Source of the DNA: Paraburkholderia sp. BL10I2N1
Lineage (GTDB): Bacteria; Pseudomonadota; Gammaproteobacteria; Burkholderiales; Burkholderiaceae
NCBI RefSeq assembly: GCF_004361815.1
Contig: NZ_SNWA01000001.1
Coordinates: 2,294,001 to 2,358,000 of the forward strand
Length of the DNA stretch: 64,000 nt
Reading direction: 5' to 3'
The translations under genes were made by a program, and so were the position numbers. Positions 5,448-15,216 of this stretch are shown here, piece after piece. The notes under the pieces are model-generated. The model worked only from the letters and a program-made list of their open reading frames with translations. It was not told where the DNA came from and did not search any database. Numbering within the stretch: the stretch's first letter is position 1; each line of letters begins with the position of its first letter.

Positions 5448-6095
5448 TCAGGTCGCCGAGCCAGCGCCAGACTCGACTGTAGCCGCTGGAGTAGTCACGG
5501 CTGCGCTCTTGCGCGGCACTCTCTTTGCCGCCGACGTCCTGCTTGCAGCCCGCGCAGCCTTCTTCGCGGTCGCTCTCTTTGCCGGCGCCTTTGCGCTCAC
5601 CGCCTTCTTGGCGCCAGCTTTCTTCGCCGGCGATGCTTTCTTCACTGCGACAGCCTTCGTCACAACGACCTTCTTGGTGGCCGCTTTCTTTCCCGCAACC
5701 TTCGCCTTGCTCGCACCATCCGCATCGGTCGCCGCGCCGGCTTCTGCAATCAGGAACCTGCTGCGGTCCTTCACGTCCTTAATCCATGCTCGAGGCCGGG
5801 CATGACCACTCCACGTTTCGCCGGTTTTTGGATTCAAATATTTCGGTGACGGCTTCCCTTTTCACTGGGATGCCGCGTTCGCTTTGGTCCTGACCGCTGT
5901 CGTCGCGCTGACACTCAGCTTGTGTTCGCGTTTCTTGCCACCAACATGCACGTCGATGTCAGCAATCGTCAGGCCGTGTTTTGACGTTAACTCACGCATC
6001 TTGTCGATGACAGCGACGACTGCTTCGCAATGAGTGCGTCCGCTTGCGCATCTCAATTTCTTCATCTTTGCCCGGAGTTGTTCTAGTGTTGCCAT
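5448..6095 (-). pseudogene. H-NS-type nucleoid protein interrupted by one in-frame TGA
   Basis: The first 77 codons (MATLEQLRAKMKKLRC ... HGLTIADIDVHVGGKKREHKL) are the oligomerisation half of a Burkholderia H-NS protein. They end at TGA 5862-5864. In the same frame, 8 codons later, the DNA-binding half continues (KYLNPKTGETWSGHARPRAWI), then a long AAKK-type Ala/Lys-rich histone-H1-like tail. With the TGA read through, the gene is 215 codons with no other defect. Either a single CGA/CAA-type codon became a stop, or the two halves are made separately (the second part could only start at TTG 5837 or similar). It is divergent from another H-NS-like gene at 6391. Confidence 0.85.
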
Positions 6096-6390
6096 ATCAA
6101 CTCCGTGCGTCGTAGTTCAATTGCACGCAATATGCCAGGAGCGCGCATAATATTGCTGTGGAATTCCGGCACGACCGAAGTTCGGCTCCGGTCCCCACGC
6201 TGAGCGCAGCCTCGAACGACCCCGGTCATATTTCCAGTAGCGGTACATTCAGCGTCTGACGGGGAAACAGTGTGTGGAGGGCCTCATCGTCGCTCGCGGC
6301 CCATCACAGTATTCCATAGACCGAAACGGCACATCGCTGCAATCGGCGAGCGATTTCCTCAAGGAAATTGCTTTAAGGAAGGAATGGTTC

Positions 6391-6780
6391 ATGGACGAAA
6401 GAAAACGGGATAGCATGGTTGCTTATCTCCGTCGCCGTATGCAGGAATTTGGCATCAAGCCGGCCGACTTGGCATCAGCGATTGCGAGCGACCAATCAAC
6501 GCTTGCAGGACCGCGCTACCGCAGTGCGACCGGAGACACGTGGAACGGGGAAGGAAAGATGCCGCAATGGCTGCAACAAGCGATTAGTGCGGGACAGTCC
6601 GCCGAACACTTCAAAGTGTCCTCAAACGGGAAGCACCTGCGGAAAACCAGAGAAAAGGTCGACTGGCGCGATGACCCGTTTGCAGGAAGCCCGCTGGCGC
6701 GGGTGCAGCGCGAACCATCAACTGAGGCTTTTGCGACTCGCTACCTTCTGTCAACGCGGCACGGCCTTCGGCATAAGTAA
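6391..6780 (+). CDS. H-NS histone-family protein with C-terminal extension
   Basis: A 129-aa product. Residues 9-35 (MVAYLRRRMQEFGIKPADLASAI) are the end of an H-NS dimerisation region. Residues 43-61 (YRSATGDTWNGEGKMPQWL) match the DNA-binding motif Y-x-x-x-x-G-x-T-W-x-G-x-G-x-x-P-x-W of Burkholderia H-NS proteins. A basic 65-residue tail follows. ATG 6391 is chosen for the GGAAGGA element about 8 nt upstream; a GTG at 6274 in the same frame would add 39 residues without family resemblance. The N-terminal oligomerisation helix is shorter than usual, so it may act as a modulator of other H-NS proteins. Confidence 0.75.
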   Translation: MDERKRDSMVAYLRRRMQEFGIKPADLASAIASDQSTLAGPRYRSATGDTWNGEGKMPQWLQQAISAGQSAEHFKVSSNGKHLRKTREKVDWRDDPFAGSPLARVQREPSTEAFATRYLLSTRHGLRHK

Positions 6781-7356: not shown

Positions 7357-8586
7357 TCACGAGGCATGCGGATTGAGTGCTGAGAAGTCGAGTTTGCCCG
7401 CGATGAGAAACAGCACGGTGCGCATGGTCTTGAAGCTGGCGTATCCCCGTGCCTTGCGCTTGGCGGCCTGAAACAGGCCGTTGATCGCCTCAATGAATCC
7501 ATTGGTCTGGCGTGTCTGCGCCCACGCGATGATGCCGTCGAAATGACGACGGATCATGCGCGCGACGTCCTTCATGGGCTCGACCTTGGAACGCATGACG
7601 TTGCCGCACCACCGGCGCAGCATTTTGGAGACGACGTGGATCTGTTTGCGATCGAGAATCTCGCGCAGTTGCTCGCGGTACATCCACGCTCGGGCCGTGC
7701 GGTTGGTGGCGTACTGGCTGATCAGCGCCTCGAGATCGGTCAGTTGCGCGAGATCGAGTTTCTCGGCATCCTTGAGCAGCGACCAGCGCATGCCCTTCAG
7801 CGAGGGATCGGTTTTCTGCTGCGCGCGGCGCACACCATCAAGCGCTTTGGACGCATGCGCCACGACATGAAACTTGTCGAAGGTCACACGCGCGTCGGGC
7901 AGGTGTTCGTCCACGCCCTTGATGAAGGCAGCCGACATGTCGATGCTGACCGATTCGATCTGTGCAGGCGTGGCATTATGTTCCTCCAGGTGCCGGGCAA
8001 AGCGTTCGACAACGCCGGCATCCTTGCCTGGCGTGACGAAGACCACGCGCCTTGCGTCCATGTCGGCGACCAGCGAGATATAGTCCTGCCCACGTCGGGC
8101 CGACGTTTCGTCAATGGCCACCGCGGTAACTTCGGACAGGTCGGTCGCGGCCACGGCCAGGTCCACGTAACGGTCACAGATGGCCTTCACCCGATGCCAC
8201 GACAGGTTCACCACGCGGGCCACCGCGGCAAATGTCATCTCCCGGCACAGCGTCAGCACGAGCGCTTCAAACAGCAGCGTGAAGCCGTCCAGCTTGCCTA
8301 TCCAGTCGGGTTCGACCAGGCGCACCGAGCCGTCCGGCAGACGCACCCGCGGCACCCGAACCTCCAGATAGCACTCGTGCTGAAAGAAGTTGAGGTGGCG
8401 CAGCCGCTTGATCTGGGTGTCGTGAGCCGGATGCTCGCCCGCGACGCCGGGATAGGGAAAGCGCGTACCCGCGACAAAGTCCACGGCAATGGTCAGTTCA
8501 CGCCGCGCGGCATCGAAATCGACGCCTTGCACGTACCACGGGGCCTTGATTCCCAAGGCGGCTTCAAACAGTTGGGTCTGGTTCAT
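7357..8586 (-). CDS. ISL3-family transposase
   Basis: A 409-aa DDE transposase. It has an N-terminal zinc-ribbon-like/HTH part (VVNLSWHRVKAICDRYVDLA), then the ISL3 core: AVAIDETSARRGQDYISLVADMDARRVVF (first Asp), VSIDMSAAFIKGV (second Asp), DKFHVVAHASKALDGVRR, and C-terminal TNGFIEAINGLFQAAKRKARGY with the final Glu. ATG 8586 gives MNQTQLFEAALGIKAPWYV, the usual start for the family. It looks intact. Confidence 0.95.
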   Translation of the reverse strand: MNQTQLFEAALGIKAPWYVQGVDFDAARRELTIAVDFVAGTRFPYPGVAGEHPAHDTQIKRLRHLNFFQHECYLEVRVPRVRLPDGSVRLVEPDWIGKLDGFTLLFEALVLTLCREMTFAAVARVVNLSWHRVKAICDRYVDLAVAATDLSEVTAVAIDETSARRGQDYISLVADMDARRVVFVTPGKDAGVVERFARHLEEHNATPAQIESVSIDMSAAFIKGVDEHLPDARVTFDKFHVVAHASKALDGVRRAQQKTDPSLKGMRWSLLKDAEKLDLAQLTDLEALISQYATNRTARAWMYREQLREILDRKQIHVVSKMLRRWCGNVMRSKVEPMKDVARMIRRHFDGIIAWAQTRQTNGFIEAINGLFQAAKRKARGYASFKTMRTVLFLIAGKLDFSALNPHAS

Positions 8587-8603
8587 CGGTTCACGTTGTC
8601 TTG

Positions 8604-8704
8604 CAGGGCTGGTTGCCGCATTCTGCCGCAACCAGCCCTGTCCCAGCTTACTTCTTCAACGCGCGTCAAGTATTCGCTTCGCCGGGCTGACGCCCGTACT
8701 TGAC
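8604..8704. repeat. Two strong hairpins upstream of the ISL3 transposase
   Basis: CAGGGCTGGTTGC (8604-8616) pairs perfectly with GCAACCAGCCCTG (8628-8640), 18 nt before the transposase start. A second structure has an outer stem GTCAAGTA/TACTTGAC (8665-8672 / 8697-8704) enclosing an inner CGGGC/GCCCG hairpin. The first would stop or attenuate transcription entering the transposase from outside the element. Confidence 0.6.
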
Positions 8705-8746
8705 CCGCCAAACCAGCCACTCGGAATTTGAAATAGGCAGATATTG

Positions 8747-9394
8747 ATGAACGACGCGACAATGTTTGATGGAATTGACGAGCTTTTTCAGTTCGGCACT
8801 TTGCTCCCGCTCTGGACTTTCAAGCCGAGGCCAGAGCAGACCTCTGGTTTGCCCGACAGCACTCCGGTGCTGACTTGCGCGCTGACGAACAAGGAGGCTG
8901 ACTGTCTAGAGACTGAGCATTCTGATTCATATATCACTTTCGAGTGGGTCGAGACTGATGACTTTATTAGCTTGAACATCTGTCTGTATCTTGGCTACAC
9001 GCGGGTGTACTGGGTCGTTGATATAAGCGACCCTGAAGTTTATGAGGCAATCGAGTTGTGGAAACGCGCTGGCAAGGTTCCTATTGCGTTTTTCGCCCGC
9101 GACGGTGAGGTCCGGCGTCAGCTTTATCACGTTGCACGGATGCCACCATTTAATCCGGAGGTTGGCACGTACTGGTCTGACCCGTGCCATGAACCGACCG
9201 CGCGCCGATGGGAGGCGATGACCGTATTGCTCAACGCATGGCTCCGATTGCCCTACATAACCGAAGTTATCGTCGGTACGCCGCTGCGGCACGCTCTCGG
9301 GAATGTTCTGCTGACGAAGCGCTGGGAACGGCTCGCAAACGAAGGTATCGTCGCCAATTCAAGGAAAGCGATGCGCGCGGAAATACCGGATTAG
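8747..9394 (+). CDS. Hypothetical protein, 215 aa, lower GC
   Basis: Not recognised. The product starts MNDATMFDGIDELFQFG and is acidic and globular, with alternating strands and helices (YITFEWVETDDFISLNICLYLGYTRVYWVVDISDPEVYEAIELW; KVPIAFFARDGEVRRQLYH). There is no signal peptide, membrane segment or known catalytic motif. Its A/T-richer codons differ from the core genes of the window, which suggests transfer. TTG 8744 directly precedes the ATG used here; the ribosome binding site is weak. It sits beside the ISL3 element and faces the kptA row tail to tail. Confidence 0.65.
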   Translation: MNDATMFDGIDELFQFGTLLPLWTFKPRPEQTSGLPDSTPVLTCALTNKEADCLETEHSDSYITFEWVETDDFISLNICLYLGYTRVYWVVDISDPEVYEAIELWKRAGKVPIAFFARDGEVRRQLYHVARMPPFNPEVGTYWSDPCHEPTARRWEAMTVLLNAWLRLPYITEVIVGTPLRHALGNVLLTKRWERLANEGIVANSRKAMRAEIPD

Positions 9395-9749: not shown

Positions 9750-10388
9750 TCACGATTTTGGCTCGCTTTCGTACGGTCTGAACTGTGAGAGGTAAGCTGC
9801 CGGCACAACCTGAGTAAGCCATACGCCGTTATCCGAGCGGGAGAAGGTGTACCCATCAGCGTGCATCTGCGCGGCATCCACGACCAGTATCAATGGTTGA
9901 CCGTGGCGGGCGCCTACCCGCGTTGCCGTGTCGACGTCCGTGCTCAGATGGACGGCGTGTCTGGTTCGAGGCGTCAACCCTTCTTCAGCAATACTCGCCC
10001 GGTTGCTCCAGGTAGTGCCGTGATAAAGAACCGTCGGCGGCTCCATCTCGGCATATCCAAGGTCTACCTCTACAGAGTGGCCTTGCGCCGCGCGTATTCG
10101 CTTGCCATCCAGCGAGAGCGTGAATCGTTGTTTATCGTTCGTGGCAACGACCGCCTCTATGATGTCTCTGGTGATTGTCGGCAGTGTCCTAAGTCGCTTC
10201 GATGCACCCGCTTTACGCGCGGTACGTTCGATTGCGCGTATCAGTTCGTCGACAGATACCCATCCTTGGTTGTCGAGACGGACACCAACCATCCGGGATT
10301 CGTGACGTAAAATTCTCGAGAGCAGTCTGCTAATCGCGACATCGTCCCCTAGCGAATGCGAATCTTTATTTGTGTTCATAGGAGGCAT
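9750..10388 (-). CDS. kptA: RNA 2'-phosphotransferase, Tpt1/KptA family
   Basis: A 212-aa member of the Tpt1/KptA family, which uses NAD+ to transfer a splice-junction 2'-phosphate (or, in some homologues, ADP-ribosylates nucleic acid ends). The N-terminal winged-helix part has LSRILRHESRMVGVRLDNQGWVSVDELI with the catalytic Arg-His. The C-terminal ADP-ribosyltransferase-like part has RIRAAQGHSVEVD, TVLYHGTTW, HLSTDVDTATRVGARHG and FSRSDNGVWLTQVVP. All family motifs are present, so it should be active. Bacteria have no matching tRNA splicing, so its role is unknown. ATG 10388 is preceded by GGAGG at 3 nt; ATG 10379 is the alternative. It is the last gene of a minus-strand row. Confidence 0.92.
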   Translation of the reverse strand: MPPMNTNKDSHSLGDDVAISRLLSRILRHESRMVGVRLDNQGWVSVDELIRAIERTARKAGASKRLRTLPTITRDIIEAVVATNDKQRFTLSLDGKRIRAAQGHSVEVDLGYAEMEPPTVLYHGTTWSNRASIAEEGLTPRTRHAVHLSTDVDTATRVGARHGQPLILVVDAAQMHADGYTFSRSDNGVWLTQVVPAAYLSQFRPYESEPKS

Positions 10389-10540
10389 ACGCCTCCACCG
10401 GCATCCAGGCCCTGCGGCGAAGCTAGGCTAACGGCGCCCGCAGTGATGAGCAGTCCGTCTGCTTCTCGCAGCCAAGTGGCCACGTTCTCCTGCTCGTCTT
10501 GCGAATCGGCCACCTCTGCATCTCCATTAGAGTACGCCAA
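10376..10540 (-). pseudogene. Sirtuin (Sir2) N-terminal remnant
   Basis: Read on the minus strand from TTG 10540, this frame gives AYSNGDAEVADSQDEQENV, then ATWLREADGLLITAGA. The latter is the first NAD-binding motif of bacterial Sir2 proteins (normally continuing GAGMGVDSGLPDFRG). After TAGA the similarity stops exactly at the TAACGGCGCC repeat (10429-10438), and the remaining 18 codons are unrelated. The stop codon falls inside the first codons of kptA. A roughly 35-residue match is short but very characteristic. It is a decayed fragment, not a working sirtuin. Confidence 0.6.
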
Positions 10541-10554
10541 CGGTTAACGGCGCC
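10429..10554. repeat. Direct repeat TAACGGCGCC flanking the Sir2 remnant
   Basis: TAACGGCGCC occurs at 10429-10438 and again at 10545-10554, 116 bp apart, bracketing the sirtuin-like piece. Such a pair fits a deletion or recombination junction that removed the rest of the gene. Confidence 0.6.
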
Positions 10555-10586
10555 TGCTCCCAAGCCGCCGTGGCGTTGCGTTCGCT

Positions 10587-10970
10587 TCAATTCGGTTTCG
10601 GCCGCACCGCGCGCCATTGTTCCAGCTCTTTGCTGAGCGCGTCTATTTGCGCTTGCATGCCGTCCGCTCGTTTCAGCAGCTGTCCGACTTCATACCAGTA
10701 GGCATATCCTAAGTCCCCGTCCTCCAAGCCCAATTCGTGAAGCTTGCGAAGCGCAATCTCGAGGTCAATATGGTTATCCGAGTTCATCTCTTTTTCCGCT
10801 GATTTTGAGGCGTCGTGGTCGCGCTGCGTGGCAGGCATGCGCCTAAACAAAACCCCTTCGTTCACGTATCTCCTTTTGATGCGCAGCATGACCAAAGTGA
10901 GTACGAACCCGACTGCCGGCACGACCAGAAGTGCGGGCTTATTGAGCGCGAAGGTCAGGAGTTCTTTCAT
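10587..10970 (-). CDS. One-TM hypothetical protein with C-terminal coiled coil
   Basis: A 127-aa product with an N-terminal membrane segment (LLVVPAVGFVLTLVMLRI, residues about 14-31) followed by positive residues, so the bulk is predicted cytoplasmic. The C-terminal half is acidic and helical (IDLEIALRKLHELGLEDGDLGYAYWYEVGQLL, then a heptad-like MQAQIDALSKELEQW). No family recognised. It begins 33 nt after the end of the upstream gene at 11004 and may be co-transcribed with it. An internal in-frame ATG (MNSDNHID) could give a soluble short form. Confidence 0.55.
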   Translation of the reverse strand: MKELLTFALNKPALLVVPAVGFVLTLVMLRIKRRYVNEGVLFRRMPATQRDHDASKSAEKEMNSDNHIDLEIALRKLHELGLEDGDLGYAYWYEVGQLLKRADGMQAQIDALSKELEQWRAVRPKPN

Positions 10971-11003
10971 GGCGAGCAGAGTTAAGAAACTGAAGTCTTG
11001 TGC

Positions 11004-11687
11004 CTACGGAAACAGCCTCGCGTATTGTTCCGCGAACCTCACAGCTTCCTCTACTACCGGCTCGACATCTTCGGCTGATAGCCGTTGGAGCGGCGTAGAA
11101 CCGCCCAGCGAATCAACCGGGGTCGTGAAGAAGTCAAACATGGTCCATGAGTCGATTTCGCCTAGACGGCGTATGACTTTCGCGAAATCGTCGCGGAAAA
11201 TCATGTGCGAAAGAAAAAACGCTGGATAGTAGGGCTCAGGCCCGAAGTAAACGCGGAACATTCGACTCGAAGCGACATACTTATCCAGCTTCTTTTCGGT
11301 GATGCCAGCCGCCGCGCAGAAGTCGGAGGTTCGAAGTACCTTACCCTGAAGCACGAGAGGGTAGCGCTCAGCGTTCGCTTTATTGGCCCCTGGCAAAGGC
11401 TCATGTTCGGGAGTCCGCTGCGACGCACGTTTGACGCGCTTGCGAAGATTCTCTTCCTCCTCTCGAAGCGCGGGAAGGTCGATTCCGTACACCGTGGCCA
11501 CGCCGACGACTTCACAGAGATGATTTTTGAAGATGCGGCCAAGCGCAGCATCAGGGATTTTGAGCAGCGTTTCAGCGACTTTGGGGTCGAACAGGACGGC
11601 AGCAATGACAGTGCGACGGATGATGTGTTGCACCCATTCGTCCTTGAGCGATGTTTCGTTCTTCGTAGCACGCATAGTCCGCGGCAT
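11004..11687 (-). CDS. Protein with Xre/MbcA/ParS-like C-terminal domain, 227 aa
   Basis: The N-terminal 60 residues are helical (KDEWVQHIIRRTVIAAVLFDPKVAETLLKIPDAALGRI). The middle contains a Lys/Arg-rich segment and LQGKVLRTSDFCAAAGITEKKLDKYV, which resembles an HTH. The end (SWTMFDFFTTPVDSLGGSTPLQRLSAEDVEPVVEEA) matches the pattern W-x-x-x-P-x-x-x-L-x-G-x-T-P-L-x-L of the Xre/MbcA/ParS (DUF2384) toxin-binding domain of RES-Xre systems. No RES toxin is adjacent. ATG 11687 is chosen because AAGGA lies 6 nt upstream; ATG 11693 and 11741 are less likely. Confidence 0.6.
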   Translation of the reverse strand: MPRTMRATKNETSLKDEWVQHIIRRTVIAAVLFDPKVAETLLKIPDAALGRIFKNHLCEVVGVATVYGIDLPALREEEENLRKRVKRASQRTPEHEPLPGANKANAERYPLVLQGKVLRTSDFCAAAGITEKKLDKYVASSRMFRVYFGPEPYYPAFFLSHMIFRDDFAKVIRRLGEIDSWTMFDFFTTPVDSLGGSTPLQRLSAEDVEPVVEEAVRFAEQYARLFP

Positions 11688-11865
11688 GGTCATTCCTTTA
11701 CTTAAGCTAAAACCTGTTGGCGCAGAGTTGACGACACGCAAATACCAGACGACCCCCGTCCGTTGGCGGCTTGTATAGTCTCCAGACTACGTCTTCCAAT
11801 CGCTGTGGCATCTCTGCCCCTCGCTTCTTATGACCTGCGCCGCGTATGCAACAGATATGTGGGCA

Positions 11866-12207
11866 CTAGGCATCGTCGTCACTCACAGATTTCGCGAGCA
11901 TCAGTTCTGTGACATCTTTAACGGCGCCGCCCTGTCCGCGGGTGATGGTGTGAAACCAGATGTCCCAGGTGTCGATAACGCCCCAAAAGAATCCGGGCTC
12001 GCCAAGGAGTCGGTAGGTGAGGCCGTCGCTCGTCTGCACGTGCGTCGTTTTCGGGTTGAACGTAACGAGAGCAGAACTTACGCGTCCTTGGTCAACGGAG
12101 TCGTAGCCAACAAGACGCTTCAAACCGTCATCGGTCTCGAAGATTCGCCAACGCGAGAGATAGACATCAGGCTCGACCGCGGCGAGGGGTGTCGGTCGAC
12201 GGGGCAT
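11866..12207 (-). CDS. Hypothetical protein, 113 aa, promoter cut off by IS66
   Basis: The start is set at ATG 12207 by an excellent GAGGAGG site 5 nt upstream, giving MPRRPTPLAAVEPDVYLSRW. The longer frame to 12321 enters the IS66 end and is an artefact. The product is beta-rich (DVYLSRWRIFETDDGLKRLVGYD, SSALVTFNPKTTHVQTSDGLTYRLLGEPG, VIDTWDIWFHTI) with no membrane segment or known motif. It heads the minus-strand row that ends in kptA, with a 178-nt gap to the next gene. IS66 sits 55 bp upstream of the start. Confidence 0.6.
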   Translation of the reverse strand: MPRRPTPLAAVEPDVYLSRWRIFETDDGLKRLVGYDSVDQGRVSSALVTFNPKTTHVQTSDGLTYRLLGEPGFFWGVIDTWDIWFHTITRGQGGAVKDVTELMLAKSVSDDDA

Positions 12208-12349
12208 CAGTACCTCCTCAATTACTCTGGCCTCATATAGCGTGAAATAGCCAGCTTGCTCGTAAGCGCCCGGCAATGTCACCTTGAACCGGCGGGTCAT
12301 GAAAGCGACGATCGTGTCCACCTATTTTTTTAATGGACACGTGTACGCT

Positions 12350-12736
12350 ATGAACGAAAATGAAGTGGGTTCTGAAGTGGTGCAGCCGAGGCGGCGCCGT
12401 CGGCACAGCAAGGAGTTCAAGGAGAAGGTGATTCGTGCGGCGATGCAGCCGAATGTGTCAATCGCTGCGGTCGCGCTGCATTACCAGTTGAATGCGAATT
12501 TGTTGCGCCGATGGGTGGCTGCACAGGAGGAACAGGACCTCGCACGTGAGGCGCGCCAGTCGATGAGCGTGCCGCCGGCGGAGTTCGTTCCGCTGCAACT
12601 GCAGGCGCCGGGCGCGGTGCCCGCTTCGACGGAGATTCAGATCGAGGTGCGCCGGGGAGCGGCGACCGTCATGGTGCGCTGGCCGCTTTGTGCCGCAGCC
12701 GATTGCGCCGCCTGGTTGCAAGGGTGGCTGCGATGA
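12350..12736 (+). CDS. tnpA: IS66 accessory protein TnpA
   Basis: A 128-aa product with the usual basic HTH region (RRRRRHSKEFKEKVIRAAMQPNVSIAAVALHYQLNANLLRRWV), an IS3/IS66 OrfA-type transposase DNA-binding domain. The C-terminal part is a beta-strand segment typical of IS66 TnpA (IQIEVRRGAATVMVRWP). ATG 12350 is chosen; upstream in-frame codons lie in the terminal repeat region. The stop overlaps the tnpB start (ATGA). Confidence 0.9.
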   Translation: MNENEVGSEVVQPRRRRRHSKEFKEKVIRAAMQPNVSIAAVALHYQLNANLLRRWVAAQEEQDLAREARQSMSVPPAEFVPLQLQAPGAVPASTEIQIEVRRGAATVMVRWPLCAAADCAAWLQGWLR

Positions 12737-13068
12737 TCCGCATCGAGGCGATCTGGCTGGCGACGGAGCCCATCGATATGCGCGCCGGCATCGACACGGT
12801 CCTGGCGCGTGTGGTCAAGGTGTTCGGCGCGGCACGTCCGCACCACGCCTACCTGTTCGCCAATAAGCATTCGACGCGCATGAAGGTACTGGTGTACGAC
12901 GGGTTCGGTATCTGGTTGGCTGCGCGTCGCCTGAACAAGGGGCGGTTCATCTGGACGAATGGGGACCAGGCGATCGCCACCGCGCTCAATCCCGAGCAGT
13001 TGCGAGCGCTCGTGACCGGACTACCGTGGCAGACGCTCACACACGATCACGCGATTACGGTCGTGTAA
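12733..13068 (+). CDS. tnpB: IS66 accessory protein TnpB
   Basis: A 111-aa IS66 Orf2-like protein. It begins MIRIEAIWLATEPIDMRAGI (the family start is I-x-x-A-T-x-P-x-D-M-R-x-G) and contains AYLFANKHSTRMKVLVYDGFGIWLAARRLNKGRF. Full length. Required with TnpA and TnpC for transposition in studied IS66 members. Confidence 0.95.
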   Translation: MIRIEAIWLATEPIDMRAGIDTVLARVVKVFGAARPHHAYLFANKHSTRMKVLVYDGFGIWLAARRLNKGRFIWTNGDQAIATALNPEQLRALVTGLPWQTLTHDHAITVV

Positions 13069-13131
13069 TACCCCCAAAGACGTAAACTGGCTTGCTTGCC
13101 GCAGCGGGTTGGGTTCTGGCAGACTGGCCCC

Positions 13132-14664
13132 ATGAACCTGCCCGCCAACCTCGACGCTCTGAGCCCCGACGAACTGCGCACACTGGCTGCGCAGTTGATG
13201 GCTCAGGTCGGCGAGAACGAGCGGGAACTGCGCTACCGTAAGACGCGCATCGACCAGCTCACACACGAGATTGCCGTGCTCAGGCGTCTGCATTTCGGCA
13301 AGCGCAGCGAGCAGCTCAACGCCGAGCAACTGAGTCTGCTCAATGAGGCGATCGATGCCGATCTGGCAGCACTCGAAATCGAACTTGAGCAGTTGCAGCC
13401 GGATACACCACCGGATAAGCAACGACAGAAGCCCAGGCGCACACCGCTGCCTCCGCACTTGCCGCGCACCGACATCCACCATGAACCCGACGACAAGACG
13501 TGCTCCTGCGGTTGCCAGCGAGTGCGTATCGGCGAGGACGTCAGCGAGAAGCTGGACTATACGCCGGGCGTGTTCACGGTCGAGCGGCACATTCGCGGCA
13601 AGTGGGCCTGCAAGGCGTGCGAAACGCTGATTCAGGCGCCTGTTCCGCCTCATGTGATCGACAAGGGCATCCCTACCGCCGGCTTGCTCGCGCAAGTGCT
13701 GGTCGCCAAATACGGCGATCACTTGCCGCTGTACCGTCAGGAACGCATCTTCGAACGCGCGGGTCTTGCAATTCCCCAATCAACGCTTGGCGAGTGGGTT
13801 GGCGTTTGCGGCGTGCGGTTGCAGCCGCTAGTCGACGCGCTGCGCGACGAGCTTCTGCAACAGGGTGTGCTGCACGCCGATGAGACGCCGGTGCAAATGC
13901 TGGTTCCCGGTAAAGGAAAAACGCAACGCGCCTATGTATGGGCGTATGCCACCACGCAGTTCGCCGACGTGCGCGCAGTGGTCTATGAATTCGCGGATAG
14001 CCGTGCTGGCGAACATGCTCGCACGTTCCTCGGCAAATGGCGTGGCAAGCTGGTGTGTGATGATTACAGCGCCTATAAAGCCGGATTCGAGCTGGGCATC
14101 ACTGAAATCGGCTGCGCGGCACATGCCAGGAGGAAGTTCTTCGAACTGTACGCCAACCACAAGAGCCAGATCGCGGAACAGGCCCTGAAATACTTCGTCG
14201 CGCTATACGACGTCGAGCGCGACGTTGCAGACCTGAAGCCCGATCGAAGATGTATCGAGCGCCAAGAGCGAGCGCGACCCATTGCCGATGCATTGCATGC
14301 CTGGATGACCGGTCAGCGCAAACTGGTCTCCGAGGGATCGGCGATCGCCAGGGCACTCGACTACAGCCTCAAGCGATGGGACGCGCTTACACGCTACCTG
14401 GTCGATGGGCATGTGCCCATCGACAACAACTGGCTGGAAAATCAGATTCGTCCATGGGCCCTGGGAAGGGCGAACTGGCTCTTCGCGGGCTCTTTGCGTG
14501 CGGGCCAACGTGCAGCCGCGATTATGAGCCTGATTCGATCAGCGCAGCTCAACGGCCATGATCCATACGTCTACCTGAAAGACGTACTGAATCGCTTGCC
14601 AACGCATCGCGCCGACCACATCGCTCAGCTACTGCCTCATCGCTGGGCGCCGATCACCGCCTGA
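13132..14664 (+). CDS. tnpC: IS66 transposase TnpC
   Basis: A 510-aa protein. It has an N-terminal leucine-zipper-like helix (RTLAAQLMAQVGENERELRYRK), then the RRLHFGKRSEQL motif and a zinc-binding CSCGCQRVRIGEDVSEKLDY segment with CKACETL. The DDE core follows, with HADETPVQMLVPGKGKTQRAYVW, VCDDYSAYKAG and, near the end, DNNWLENQIRPWALGRANWLF with the catalytic Glu. Full length and intact. Confidence 0.96.
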   Translation: MNLPANLDALSPDELRTLAAQLMAQVGENERELRYRKTRIDQLTHEIAVLRRLHFGKRSEQLNAEQLSLLNEAIDADLAALEIELEQLQPDTPPDKQRQKPRRTPLPPHLPRTDIHHEPDDKTCSCGCQRVRIGEDVSEKLDYTPGVFTVERHIRGKWACKACETLIQAPVPPHVIDKGIPTAGLLAQVLVAKYGDHLPLYRQERIFERAGLAIPQSTLGEWVGVCGVRLQPLVDALRDELLQQGVLHADETPVQMLVPGKGKTQRAYVWAYATTQFADVRAVVYEFADSRAGEHARTFLGKWRGKLVCDDYSAYKAGFELGITEIGCAAHARRKFFELYANHKSQIAEQALKYFVALYDVERDVADLKPDRRCIERQERARPIADALHAWMTGQRKLVSEGSAIARALDYSLKRWDALTRYLVDGHVPIDNNWLENQIRPWALGRANWLFAGSLRAGQRAAAIMSLIRSAQLNGHDPYVYLKDVLNRLPTHRADHIAQLLPHRWAPITA

Positions 14665-14786
14665 TCGCTGTAGGCACTCCCCAGGGTGCCATTGCCGGGC
14701 GCTTACGCTTGCTCCACATAAACAGCCCATCCGCAAGTTACGCGGTAGGTCAAGTGCGTTCACATCAAATACCAAATAGCCGATAT

Positions 14787-14859: not shown

Positions 14860-15216
14860 GTGCAAAAGTCCATATACACCGAGCATTACGGTCTTCTCTT
14901 GTCCACGCTGCGGGAAGCGAGGAAGACAGCCGGATTGTCACAAGTCGAATTGGGGAGAAGGTTGGACCTTACCCAGTCAATCATTGGAAAATGCGAGCGT
15001 GGCGAACGGCGGCTCGACGTCATCGAGCTCAGAGAATGGTGTGGTGCGATTGGCGTTACGCTCAGCGAGTTAGTAAGTGACCTTGAGGCAGCCATTTTGC
15101 ATTTCGAAGCCGTCAAGGCGAACGCGCGAAAAACTGCGAGCAAGACCGCACGGAGGACCGGGAAAAAAACGATACAAAAGCCAGCGCGAAAAACTTTGCG
15201 AAAAAACCGCGCGTAA
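14860..15216 (+). CDS. XRE-family regulator with histone-like basic tail, 118 aa
   Basis: Residues 10-75 are a clear HTH_XRE domain (STLREARKTAGLSQVELGRRLDLTQSIIGKCERGERRLDVIELREWCGAIGVTLSELV). The last 30 residues are a Lys/Arg/Thr/Ala repeat (ARKTASKTARRTGKKTIQKP), similar to H1-like DNA-compacting tails. The start is GTG 14860. The palindrome 60 bp upstream is a likely autoregulatory operator. Before the IS66 insertion it was divergent from the 113-aa gene now at 11866-12207, about 200 bp away, so it may have controlled that row. Confidence 0.8.
   Translation: MQKSIYTEHYGLLLSTLREARKTAGLSQVELGRRLDLTQSIIGKCERGERRLDVIELREWCGAIGVTLSELVSDLEAAILHFEAVKANARKTASKTARRTGKKTIQKPARKTLRKNRA

Follow-up and report, generated by a model that had tools for sequence, protein, structure and literature searches.

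Many bacteria carry RNA 2'-phosphotransferases of the KptA/Tpt1 family without a known 2'-phosphorylated RNA, and the reason for this has been called a "longstanding conundrum" (PMC6333775). According to the same article, bacterial Tpt1 homologues rescue a yeast tpt1 deletion, and Cth Tpt1 made in E. coli held ADP-ribose-1''-phosphate, from which its authors argued that bacteria contain a substrate (PMC6333775). Another related group comprises the RES-Xre/MbcA/ParS toxin-antitoxin systems (ParST, MbcTA, and NatRT). In NatR-NatT, a RES enzyme is paired with an Xre/ParS-like repressor (PMC11535050), and both RES and KptA are enzymes of the ADP-ribosyltransferase superfamily with phosphate as the acceptor (PMC9503650). 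Proposed phage NAD+-dependent RNA-repair neighborhoods combine a sirtuin or KptA with SAK-HAD, calcineurin-like, 2H, cREC, and ligase genes, and human BLES03 (C11orf68) is a putative phosphothreonine lyase with the eIF4E fold. Among the papers searched, five mention KptA alongside Sir2 and two alongside the RES domain. In our literature search, the gene row reported here was not found described, although a 2016 RNA-repair review (10.1093/nar/gkw722) could contain it; Bles03 together with KptA was not found either.

The row lies in a 64,000-nt window (the whole stretch of DNA analyzed; positions 2,294,001-2,358,000 of contig NZ_SNWA01000001.1 of Paraburkholderia sp. BL10I2N1), and all coordinates are window positions (Table 1). 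The original prediction listed five minus-strand units. The intact kptA and the three other intact ORFs were found again, but the units number six, four intact ORFs and two remnants (the 5' end of a sirtuin gene and a phosphatase-like fragment), the additional one being the phosphatase-like remnant between the 113- and 227-aa genes.

Table 1. Features of the gene row and its right flank in the window
Feature	Position	Strand	Remarks
kptA, row-type predicted RNA 2'-phosphotransferase (Tpt1/KptA)	9750..10388	-	212 aa; assigned by PF01885, tetrad, clade, and dN/dS
sir2 remnant	10432..10531	-	pre-start region and ~28 codons; non-functional
TMcc127	10587..10970	-	127 aa; putative single TM helix and coiled coil (reading of the original prediction)
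p227, Xre/MbcA/ParS-like	11004..11687	-	227 aa; PF09722 match under cut-off
c14 remnant, dual-specificity-phosphatase-like	11710..11814	-	~35 codons; tblastn 54% over 35 residues
p113	11866..12207	-	113 aa, at the head of the row; no known family; predicted beta-rich, two helices
IS66-like element	12262..14706		TIR 22/24, perfect 8-bp target duplication
XRE (HTH_3) regulator	14860..15216	+	PF01381 E 9.3e-11

The p113 family was present in 57 of the 249 Burkholderiaceae genomes surveyed, and a separate comparison gave 52 homologous proteins; its structure model (pLDDT 71.9) gave no significant match in a fold search. The TMcc127 family occurred in 27 of these genomes, and the window protein is 88% identical to the product of the gene upstream of kptA in locus L005. 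The homologue of the c14 remnant in locus L185 matched DSPc at E 6.8e-5, under the cut-off. On the right, the IS66-like element separates the row from the XRE gene. This element, which we take to belong to the IS66 family, is flanked by 8-bp direct repeats at 12254-12261 and 14707-14714 and stands 54 bp upstream of p113. The XRE protein matched that of locus L005 at 53%, and its homologues in loci L005 and L180 are divergent and adjoin the row.

The sirtuin remnant is genuine: approximately 100 nt match the sir2 5' region (80.6% DNA identity over 103 columns to locus L179; tblastn 71% over 28 residues). It represents about a tenth of the intact gene, and a full NAD-binding and catalytic sirtuin domain is absent from the window row. 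The copy in the window is rearranged, since the remnant lies upstream of kptA, whereas in relatives the sirtuin is downstream. The window row is real, and it represents a recurrent cassette in a decayed state. In this strain, the genes for the sirtuin, Bles03, HTH_17, and the phosphatase-like protein are dead or missing, and an IS66-like copy occupies the front of the row; therefore, probably only a core of KptA and p227 could still work.

Inspection of the 249 genomes, with neighbors counted within 7 kb of kptA, showed that the cassette recurs in Paraburkholderia and Caballeronia. Twelve row-type kptA genes, found in only 10 genomes, form one clade with 100/100 support in a tree whose bootstrap had not fully settled; they were compared with 20 other kptA places, several of them broken or partial. 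The p227 family was near 11 of the 12 row-type genes (the contig ends at the twelfth) and near none of the 20 others. For a randomly placed gene the expected rate is about 0.03%, so the proximity of p227 and kptA is more than chance. The 127-aa family accompanied 9/12 row-type and 1/20 other genes, sirtuin 6/12 and 0/20, and the 113-aa family 4/12 and 1/20, while a Bles03-like protein was encoded at 8/12 row-type places. The partners named in the original prediction thus do occur with kptA elsewhere, and therefore the NAD+- and RNA-centered gene set that it proposed is real in relatives. The counts used 32 of 33 KptA, 35 of 37 TMcc, and 12 of 13 Bles03 places, omitting second pieces of genes (for KptA, that of the broken G098 gene). 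The p227, Sir2, and p113 lists were partial at first, and a recount with every listed place in the kptA-carrying genomes left the result unchanged. Loci L190, L222, and L268 duplicate L007, L003, and L173.

Kinship between the genomes inflates these co-occurrence counts, which would suit a simple hitch-hiking scenario: accessory islands of Burkholderiaceae would be collecting places for enzymes, small regulators, and remnants of antitoxins, with no functional bond between kptA and its neighbors. Gene order and content are variable, several members are broken, and the Tn7-like transposition genes in loci L183, L185, L186, and L187 are adjoined by varying sets of p113, BPSL0761-family, p141, p227, and TMcc genes, with kptA missing. 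The latter finding also argues against a single fixed system, as does the lack of kptA at nine of the 21 strong p227 places (one being at a contig end), which also counts against our preferred reading given below. On the contrary, the row-type KptA clade, with an insertion of its own, is accompanied by p227 across at least two genera and in different flanking contexts, and dN/dS values of 0.10-0.28 were obtained across kptA, p227, TMcc, and p113 of the window (simple NG86 estimates; dS exceeded 1 for a number of pairs). We consider such hitch-hiking unlikely, although it keeps appreciable weight.

The window protein is a member of the KptA/Tpt1 family and a predicted 2'-phosphotransferase. It matched PF01885 at E 6.9e-47 with a full-domain score of 160.2 bits against a gathering cut-off of 26, and a PDB relative is 7kw8 (E 2.6e-42). 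The tetrad R28, H29, R88, and R143 and the HGT motif 123-125 (H123 and T125), numbered by hand transfer from PMC6333775, are present, each of these residues being kept in 98 or 99 of 99 aligned KptA. The dN/dS of kptA was 0.10-0.22. Bacterial Tpt1/KptA of Clostridium thermocellum, Runella, and E. coli belong to the same Pfam family and have the same tetrad and HGT motif, but the row enzyme has 11 additional residues inserted in its RNA lobe, a feature confined to the KptA clade linked to p227, and it is in the constant company of p227. To our knowledge, E. coli KptA has no known partner. KptA could also act in housekeeping, repairing host tRNA or other RNA with 2'-phosphates as an island-borne stress gene without any link to conflict. 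The presence of other-clade KptA in other Burkholderiaceae without row genes and the ADP-ribose-1''-phosphate carried by Cth Tpt1 from E. coli are consistent with this role, but the rarity of row-type kptA and its separate clade make it very improbable.

The ParS/Xre label given to p227 in the original prediction corresponds to a match under the Pfam cut-off (PF09722, 13.6 bits versus 24.5, E 0.067). Among its relatives, 10 of 28 matched PF09722 at E ≤0.1, the best at 0.0018. A point new relative to that prediction is that the sister clade of p227 is tied to RES genes: 7 of its 10 members are directly upstream of RES-domain genes at a distance of 1-12 nt, the RES proteins scanned having been chosen by look and similarity among the ORFs downstream. 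For the other three (L277, L280, and L285) no RES gene was recognized, which, like the sub-threshold PF09722 match of p227, counts against our preferred reading given below; the p227 tree carried a long-branch warning for L267 and L285. p227 is a likely relative of toxin-neutralizing proteins. No RES gene is found directly downstream of p227 in the window, where TMcc127 and then KptA follow; the genome has RES at five places, all of them away from the row.

Together with the common superfamily and phosphate acceptor of RES and KptA, the RES-linked sister clade suggests that KptA may have replaced a RES toxin. p227 would then be a true antitoxin, and free KptA, by using up NAD+ or attaching ADP-ribose to RNA phosphates, would harm or stall the cell, as a new flavor of RES-Xre/ParS systems with NatR-NatT as a precedent. 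In locus L007 the only intact recognized row genes are p227 and kptA, with a trace of TMcc between them, and in L176 the gap between the two is 74 nt. The restriction of the RNA-lobe insertion to p227-linked KptA points in the same direction, as do the PrlF-like (above cut-off) and HTH_17-like (below cut-off) proteins of the L002 row, kinds common among antitoxins. The row differs from the known RES-Xre/MbcA/ParS systems in having KptA instead of RES, in its sub-threshold ParS match, and in the genes that usually lie in between. The genes separating p227 from kptA in most rows speak against a replacement. Moreover, p227 occurs without recognized kptA or RES in L171-L173, L178, L186, L187, L286, and L301, and the complementation of the yeast tpt1 deletion by bacterial Tpt1 argues against general toxicity of KptA. 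We regard this toxin replacement as unlikely.

The Bles03-like protein, absent from the window, has the eIF4E fold in its model. The L002 row protein is shorter than human BLES03 and aligns with it at E 6e-11; the fold is the same, and four pocket residues are present in its relatives. The gene neighbors would favor RNA phosphates over phosphothreonine as its target. Most of the alignments listed with human or mouse-type eIF4E start at residue 77 or 78; therefore Trp56, one of the m7G-cap sandwich tryptophans of eIF4E, is outside the aligned region. HAD_SAK_2, an RNA-repair HAD phosphatase, is encoded between p227 and kptA in locus L180, the only kptA row with this gene, and also in other p227-family loci, positions being compared by hand. 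HAD loci were 9 of 41 (excluding L303, chosen for its HAD gene), and seven of the nine involve distant p227 relatives; both this and the single occurrence among kptA rows weaken our preferred reading. The window row has no RNA-end phosphatase of the repair type.

As in the phage RNA-repair neighborhoods, KptA, sirtuin, SAK-HAD, and calcineurin-like enzymes recur across the window and related rows. The rows differ in being located in bacterial accessory DNA and in adding antitoxin-like regulators and the Bles03/eIF4E-fold protein. Unlike the phage neighborhoods, they contained no ligase, 2H, cREC, or Macro genes among the row genes scanned; for RNA ligase, the scan covered the four row ORFs of the window and a subset of the row genes of relatives. 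RtcB was found in 1/10 row genomes and 2H-family genes in 10/10, in both cases unlinked to the row, which does not favor RNA-end processing.

An intact sirtuin gene is located within 7 kb of kptA in the rows of five relatives and a split one in one more. The second NAD-using family that the original prediction placed beside KptA therefore belongs to the cassette in relatives and not to the window copy, in which the sirtuin is dead. The row sirtuin scored above the SIR2 Pfam cut-off with conserved motifs and looks like an ordinary deacylase, and its subfamily occurs in 69/249 genomes (E ≤1e-40), mostly away from rows; both observations speak against the RNA-end reading.

Our best reading, which we hold tentatively as quite possible, is that the cassette of the KptA subfamily and p227, decayed here, uses NAD+ in acting on phosphorylated ends of RNA during conflict with phages or mobile DNA. 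It would be an NAD+-dependent RNA-end-processing module under a regulator of the RES-antitoxin type. p227 may restrain the row or KptA itself, as Xre/ParS antitoxins restrain RES toxins. After RNA is cut in the conflict, KptA would take the 2'-phosphate from RNA that is damaged or has been rejoined and pass it to ADP-ribose from NAD+ or, alternatively, cap an RNA 5'-phosphate with ADP-ribose. Bles03 could assist via a phosphate-binding pocket, HAD_SAK_2 and calcineurin-like phosphoesterases could trim phosphates, and the sirtuin might perform NAD+-dependent deacylation or an activity parallel to that of KptA.

In a bolder form, which appears doubtful, a RES-Xre/ParS lineage would have swapped its NAD+-consuming toxin for KptA, an RNA-repair enzyme that would thereby have become an NAD+-dependent effector directed at RNA within a mobile conflict module; the eIF4E-fold protein would read RNA ends made or cleared by KptA, and the RNA-lobe insertion would contact the p227 antitoxin. 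With its almost invariant antitoxin-like partner, its own insertion, and recurrent RNA-end enzymes nearby, this KptA subfamily makes the conundrum approachable through two genes. Control of KptA by p227 would make RES and KptA two interchangeable NAD+-dependent effectors of a single antitoxin family; otherwise, the cassette would still put forward an eIF4E-fold protein as a candidate bacterial factor for RNA ends. Should the RNA-end reading be true, the widespread bacterial KptA would gain a job so far missing.

A putative defense role of the row has indirect support from the neighborhood. None of six ORFs, including all four intact row proteins, matched a model of PADLOC-DB 2.0.0. Ten hand-picked neighbors were scanned, three of which had no match; L007 has SIR2, HerA, and type IIG genes beside its row, and near L175 a gene matched type IV restriction models. 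In addition, TIR and HEPN genes were present in two row-like stretches.

The minus-strand row ending in kptA is one copy of an accessory cassette that recurs in Burkholderiaceae together with a KptA subfamily and with frequent neighbors related to NAD+ or RNA phosphate. In a single draw of 249 genomes of the family, KptA matches occurred in 30 genomes, p227-family matches (227-aa row protein, distant relatives counted) in 43, TMcc127 (TMcc, 127 aa) in 27, p113 (113 aa) in 57, the BLES03-like partner Bles03, with an eIF4E-fold model, in 9 (at E up to 1e-6), and sirtuins of the row's subfamily in 69 (at E up to 1e-40). Twelve kptA genes from ten genomes were of the row type, defined by an insertion in the RNA lobe and by clade. 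Within 7 kb of these genes, we found p227 at 11 of 12 places, TMcc at 9, Bles03 at 8, the sirtuin at 6 (intact in five rows, split in one), and p113 at 4; at the 20 remaining kptA places, of which several are broken or partial, the corresponding counts were 0, 1, 0, 0, and 1. The 113-, 227-, and 127-aa families and Sir2, which the original prediction had tentatively joined with kptA by position into an NAD- and RNA-centered defense or conflict system, thus do accompany row-type kptA elsewhere. The Fisher value for p227 was 9e-8, which overstates the case because the genomes are related. At the sole row-type locus without p227 (genome G238), the kptA contig ends within Bles03, and p227 followed by a piece of Bles03 lies near the end of another contig.

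The KptA of the window scored 160.2 bits versus a Pfam cut-off of 26, matched solved Tpt1 structures (7kw8, E 2.6e-42), and retained the Arg-His-Arg-Arg tetrad and HGT motif as given in PMC6333775. It was the sole KptA match in the 9.2 Mb genome. In all six near relatives of this KptA (74%–77% identity), one or more row genes adjoin kptA. Among 99 non-identical proteins, the 11-residue insertion was present in 13 of 13 row-type KptA (the twelve from the 249 genomes and that of stretch L005) versus none of 86 others, one of which carried a different, shorter extra stretch. Row-type KptA formed a single clade with a long stem and 100/100 support, the bootstrap being not fully settled.

Features of the row, its surroundings, and related stretches (window coordinates unless a stretch or genome is named)
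Feature	Location	Strand	Basis or remark
p113, 113 aa	first gene of row (from 12207)	-	ORF reading
Dual-specificity-phosphatase-like gene remnant	11710-11814	-	sequence comparison
p227, 227 aa	between phosphatase-like remnant and TMcc127	-	ORF reading
TMcc127, 127 aa	between p227 and sirtuin remnant	-	ORF reading
Sirtuin remnant	10432-10531	-	sequence comparison
kptA, intact, 212 aa	last of row, down to 9750	-	Pfam match
216-aa orphan protein	8744-9394	+	convergent with kptA
Transposase-like ORF, long	7357-8631	-	left of row; presumably resembles ISL3 type
H-NS C-terminal-domain match	6274-6780	+	over cut-off; beside row
H-NS C-terminal-domain match	5448-5837	-	just under cut-off; alanine/lysine-rich histone-like tail; beside row
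Intact sirtuin, row subfamily	G000:C1:2263819-2264637		82% to copy of L002 (P. ginsengisoli)
Calcineurin-like phosphoesterase, HAD_SAK_2, HipA, DUF6088, p227	L178 2244-8711	+	single stretch
TIR-domain gene and HEPN/Toprim-N gene	L173 4215-5375; L176 7747-8670	+	within row-like stretches
TnsA/TnsB/TniB/TniQ set	L183 1476-7130	+	also L185, L186, L187
Row, among fullest copies	L174		DUF6471, p113, BPSL0761, p227, TMcc, Bles03, PrlF-like, c9, HTH_17, kptA, sirtuin
Row, among fullest copies	L002		DUF6471, BPSL0761, p227, TMcc, Bles03, HTH_17, kptA, PrlF-like, sirtuin, p141

The window holds a decayed copy of the cassette in which kptA is still intact. It is one of the poorer copies, since Bles03 and HTH_17 are missing and the sirtuin survives only as a trace. 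Its G+C content is 56.3% versus 62.5% across the window. An element that we take to be IS66-like begins 54 bp upstream of p113 and stands between the row and an XRE gene, whose homologues adjoin the row divergently in two relatives, as judged by gene order and similarity. The terminal repeats of this element agree at 22 of 24 positions, and its 8-bp target duplication is perfect. Pairwise dN/dS was 0.10–0.22 for kptA against eight relatives and 0.18–0.28 for p227, TMcc, and p113, with dS close to or beyond saturation for some pairs. These values indicate that the four genes have been maintained by selection, in a comparison that cannot date the onset of this copy's decay. The intact sirtuin of genome G000, about 39 kb from kptA and with no row genes nearby, could stand in for the dead row copy. 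The 599-aa chain PDB 8rsn_A, which bears the name ADP-ribose 1''-phosphate phosphatase, contains a stretch resembling the sirtuin of the row (E 8e-18). The 216-aa orphan had no match in Pfam or PADLOC and may be part of a wider set, since homologous stretches (31%–37%) occur in L100 and L168 close to genes for p227 or TMcc.

The sole family match of p227, which did not reach threshold, was to the toxin-binding domain at the C terminus of Xre/MbcA/ParS antitoxins (E 0.067 for the window protein; also seen for 10 of 28 relatives, the best at E 0.0018), and this name is found in some source records as well. Inspection of 19 p227-family genes outside kptA rows revealed a RES domain protein as the next ORF, 1–12 nt downstream, for seven full-length relatives (six from one genus), and a 4-nt overlap with the RES gene for two distant ones. 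All nine downstream proteins scanned, chosen by look and similarity, were RES by Pfam. The cassette partner p227 has a RES-linked sister clade: one branch with 100/100 support parts the seven RES-linked from 14 KptA-linked proteins, in a tree with a long-branch warning on two rows of the RES side. Near three members of the RES-linked clade (L277, L280, and L285), no RES gene was seen. RES and KptA are members of one ADP-ribosyltransferase superfamily, and the acceptor is phosphate for both enzymes (PMC9503650). A plain exchange of RES for KptA is disfavored by nine KptA-side p227 proteins with neither enzyme recognized nearby (one, L224, is near a contig end) and by the TMcc or other genes that separate p227 from kptA in most rows. 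We favor, tentatively, RNA-end processing under a RES-antitoxin-type regulator, in which p227 would control the row or KptA itself and the row would act on RNA ends during conflict. KptA acting as the toxin in place of RES is a less likely yet serious alternative.

HAD_SAK_2 is the HAD domain of Swiss Army Knife RNA repair proteins. A gene for it lies between p227 and kptA in L180 (E 2e-19). In total, HAD_SAK_2 was found within 3 kb of a p227-family gene at 9 of 41 distinct loci not picked for it (distant p227 relatives in seven of the nine). In 22 genomes picked for row genes, a comparison by hand placed 6 of 16 HAD_SAK_2 genes no more than 3 kb from one of the row genes. Stretch L182 encodes a calcineurin-like phosphoesterase (Pfam), and L178, L269, L271, and L272 encode proteins similar to it. 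In phages, such kinds of enzymes are proposed parts of RNA repair (PMC9503650, PMC7824862). RtcB was absent from nine of ten row genomes, and 2H-family genes were present in all ten, unlinked to the row.

No PADLOC model was matched by any of the four intact row proteins. Ten hand-picked neighbors were scanned, and some rows have defense genes beside them: L007 has SIR2, HerA, and a type IIG enzyme, one gene near L175 matches models of type IV restriction, and weaker matches were found near L003 and L002. Tn7-like genes adjoin row genes such as p113, BPSL0761, p141, p227, and TMcc, without kptA, in L183, L185, L186, and L187, and therefore part of the row seems to travel with Tn7-like elements. 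TniB and TniQ of L183 exceeded Pfam cut-offs, TnsA and TnsB being named by position and weak matches, and L172 contains a TnsB-like gene. A Tn7-like element may regularly carry these small genes as cargo; queries with the L183 Tn7-like proteins gave no matches in the stretches examined around rows with kptA. Mere hitch-hiking of the row genes is less likely than the favored reading, yet a serious alternative to it.
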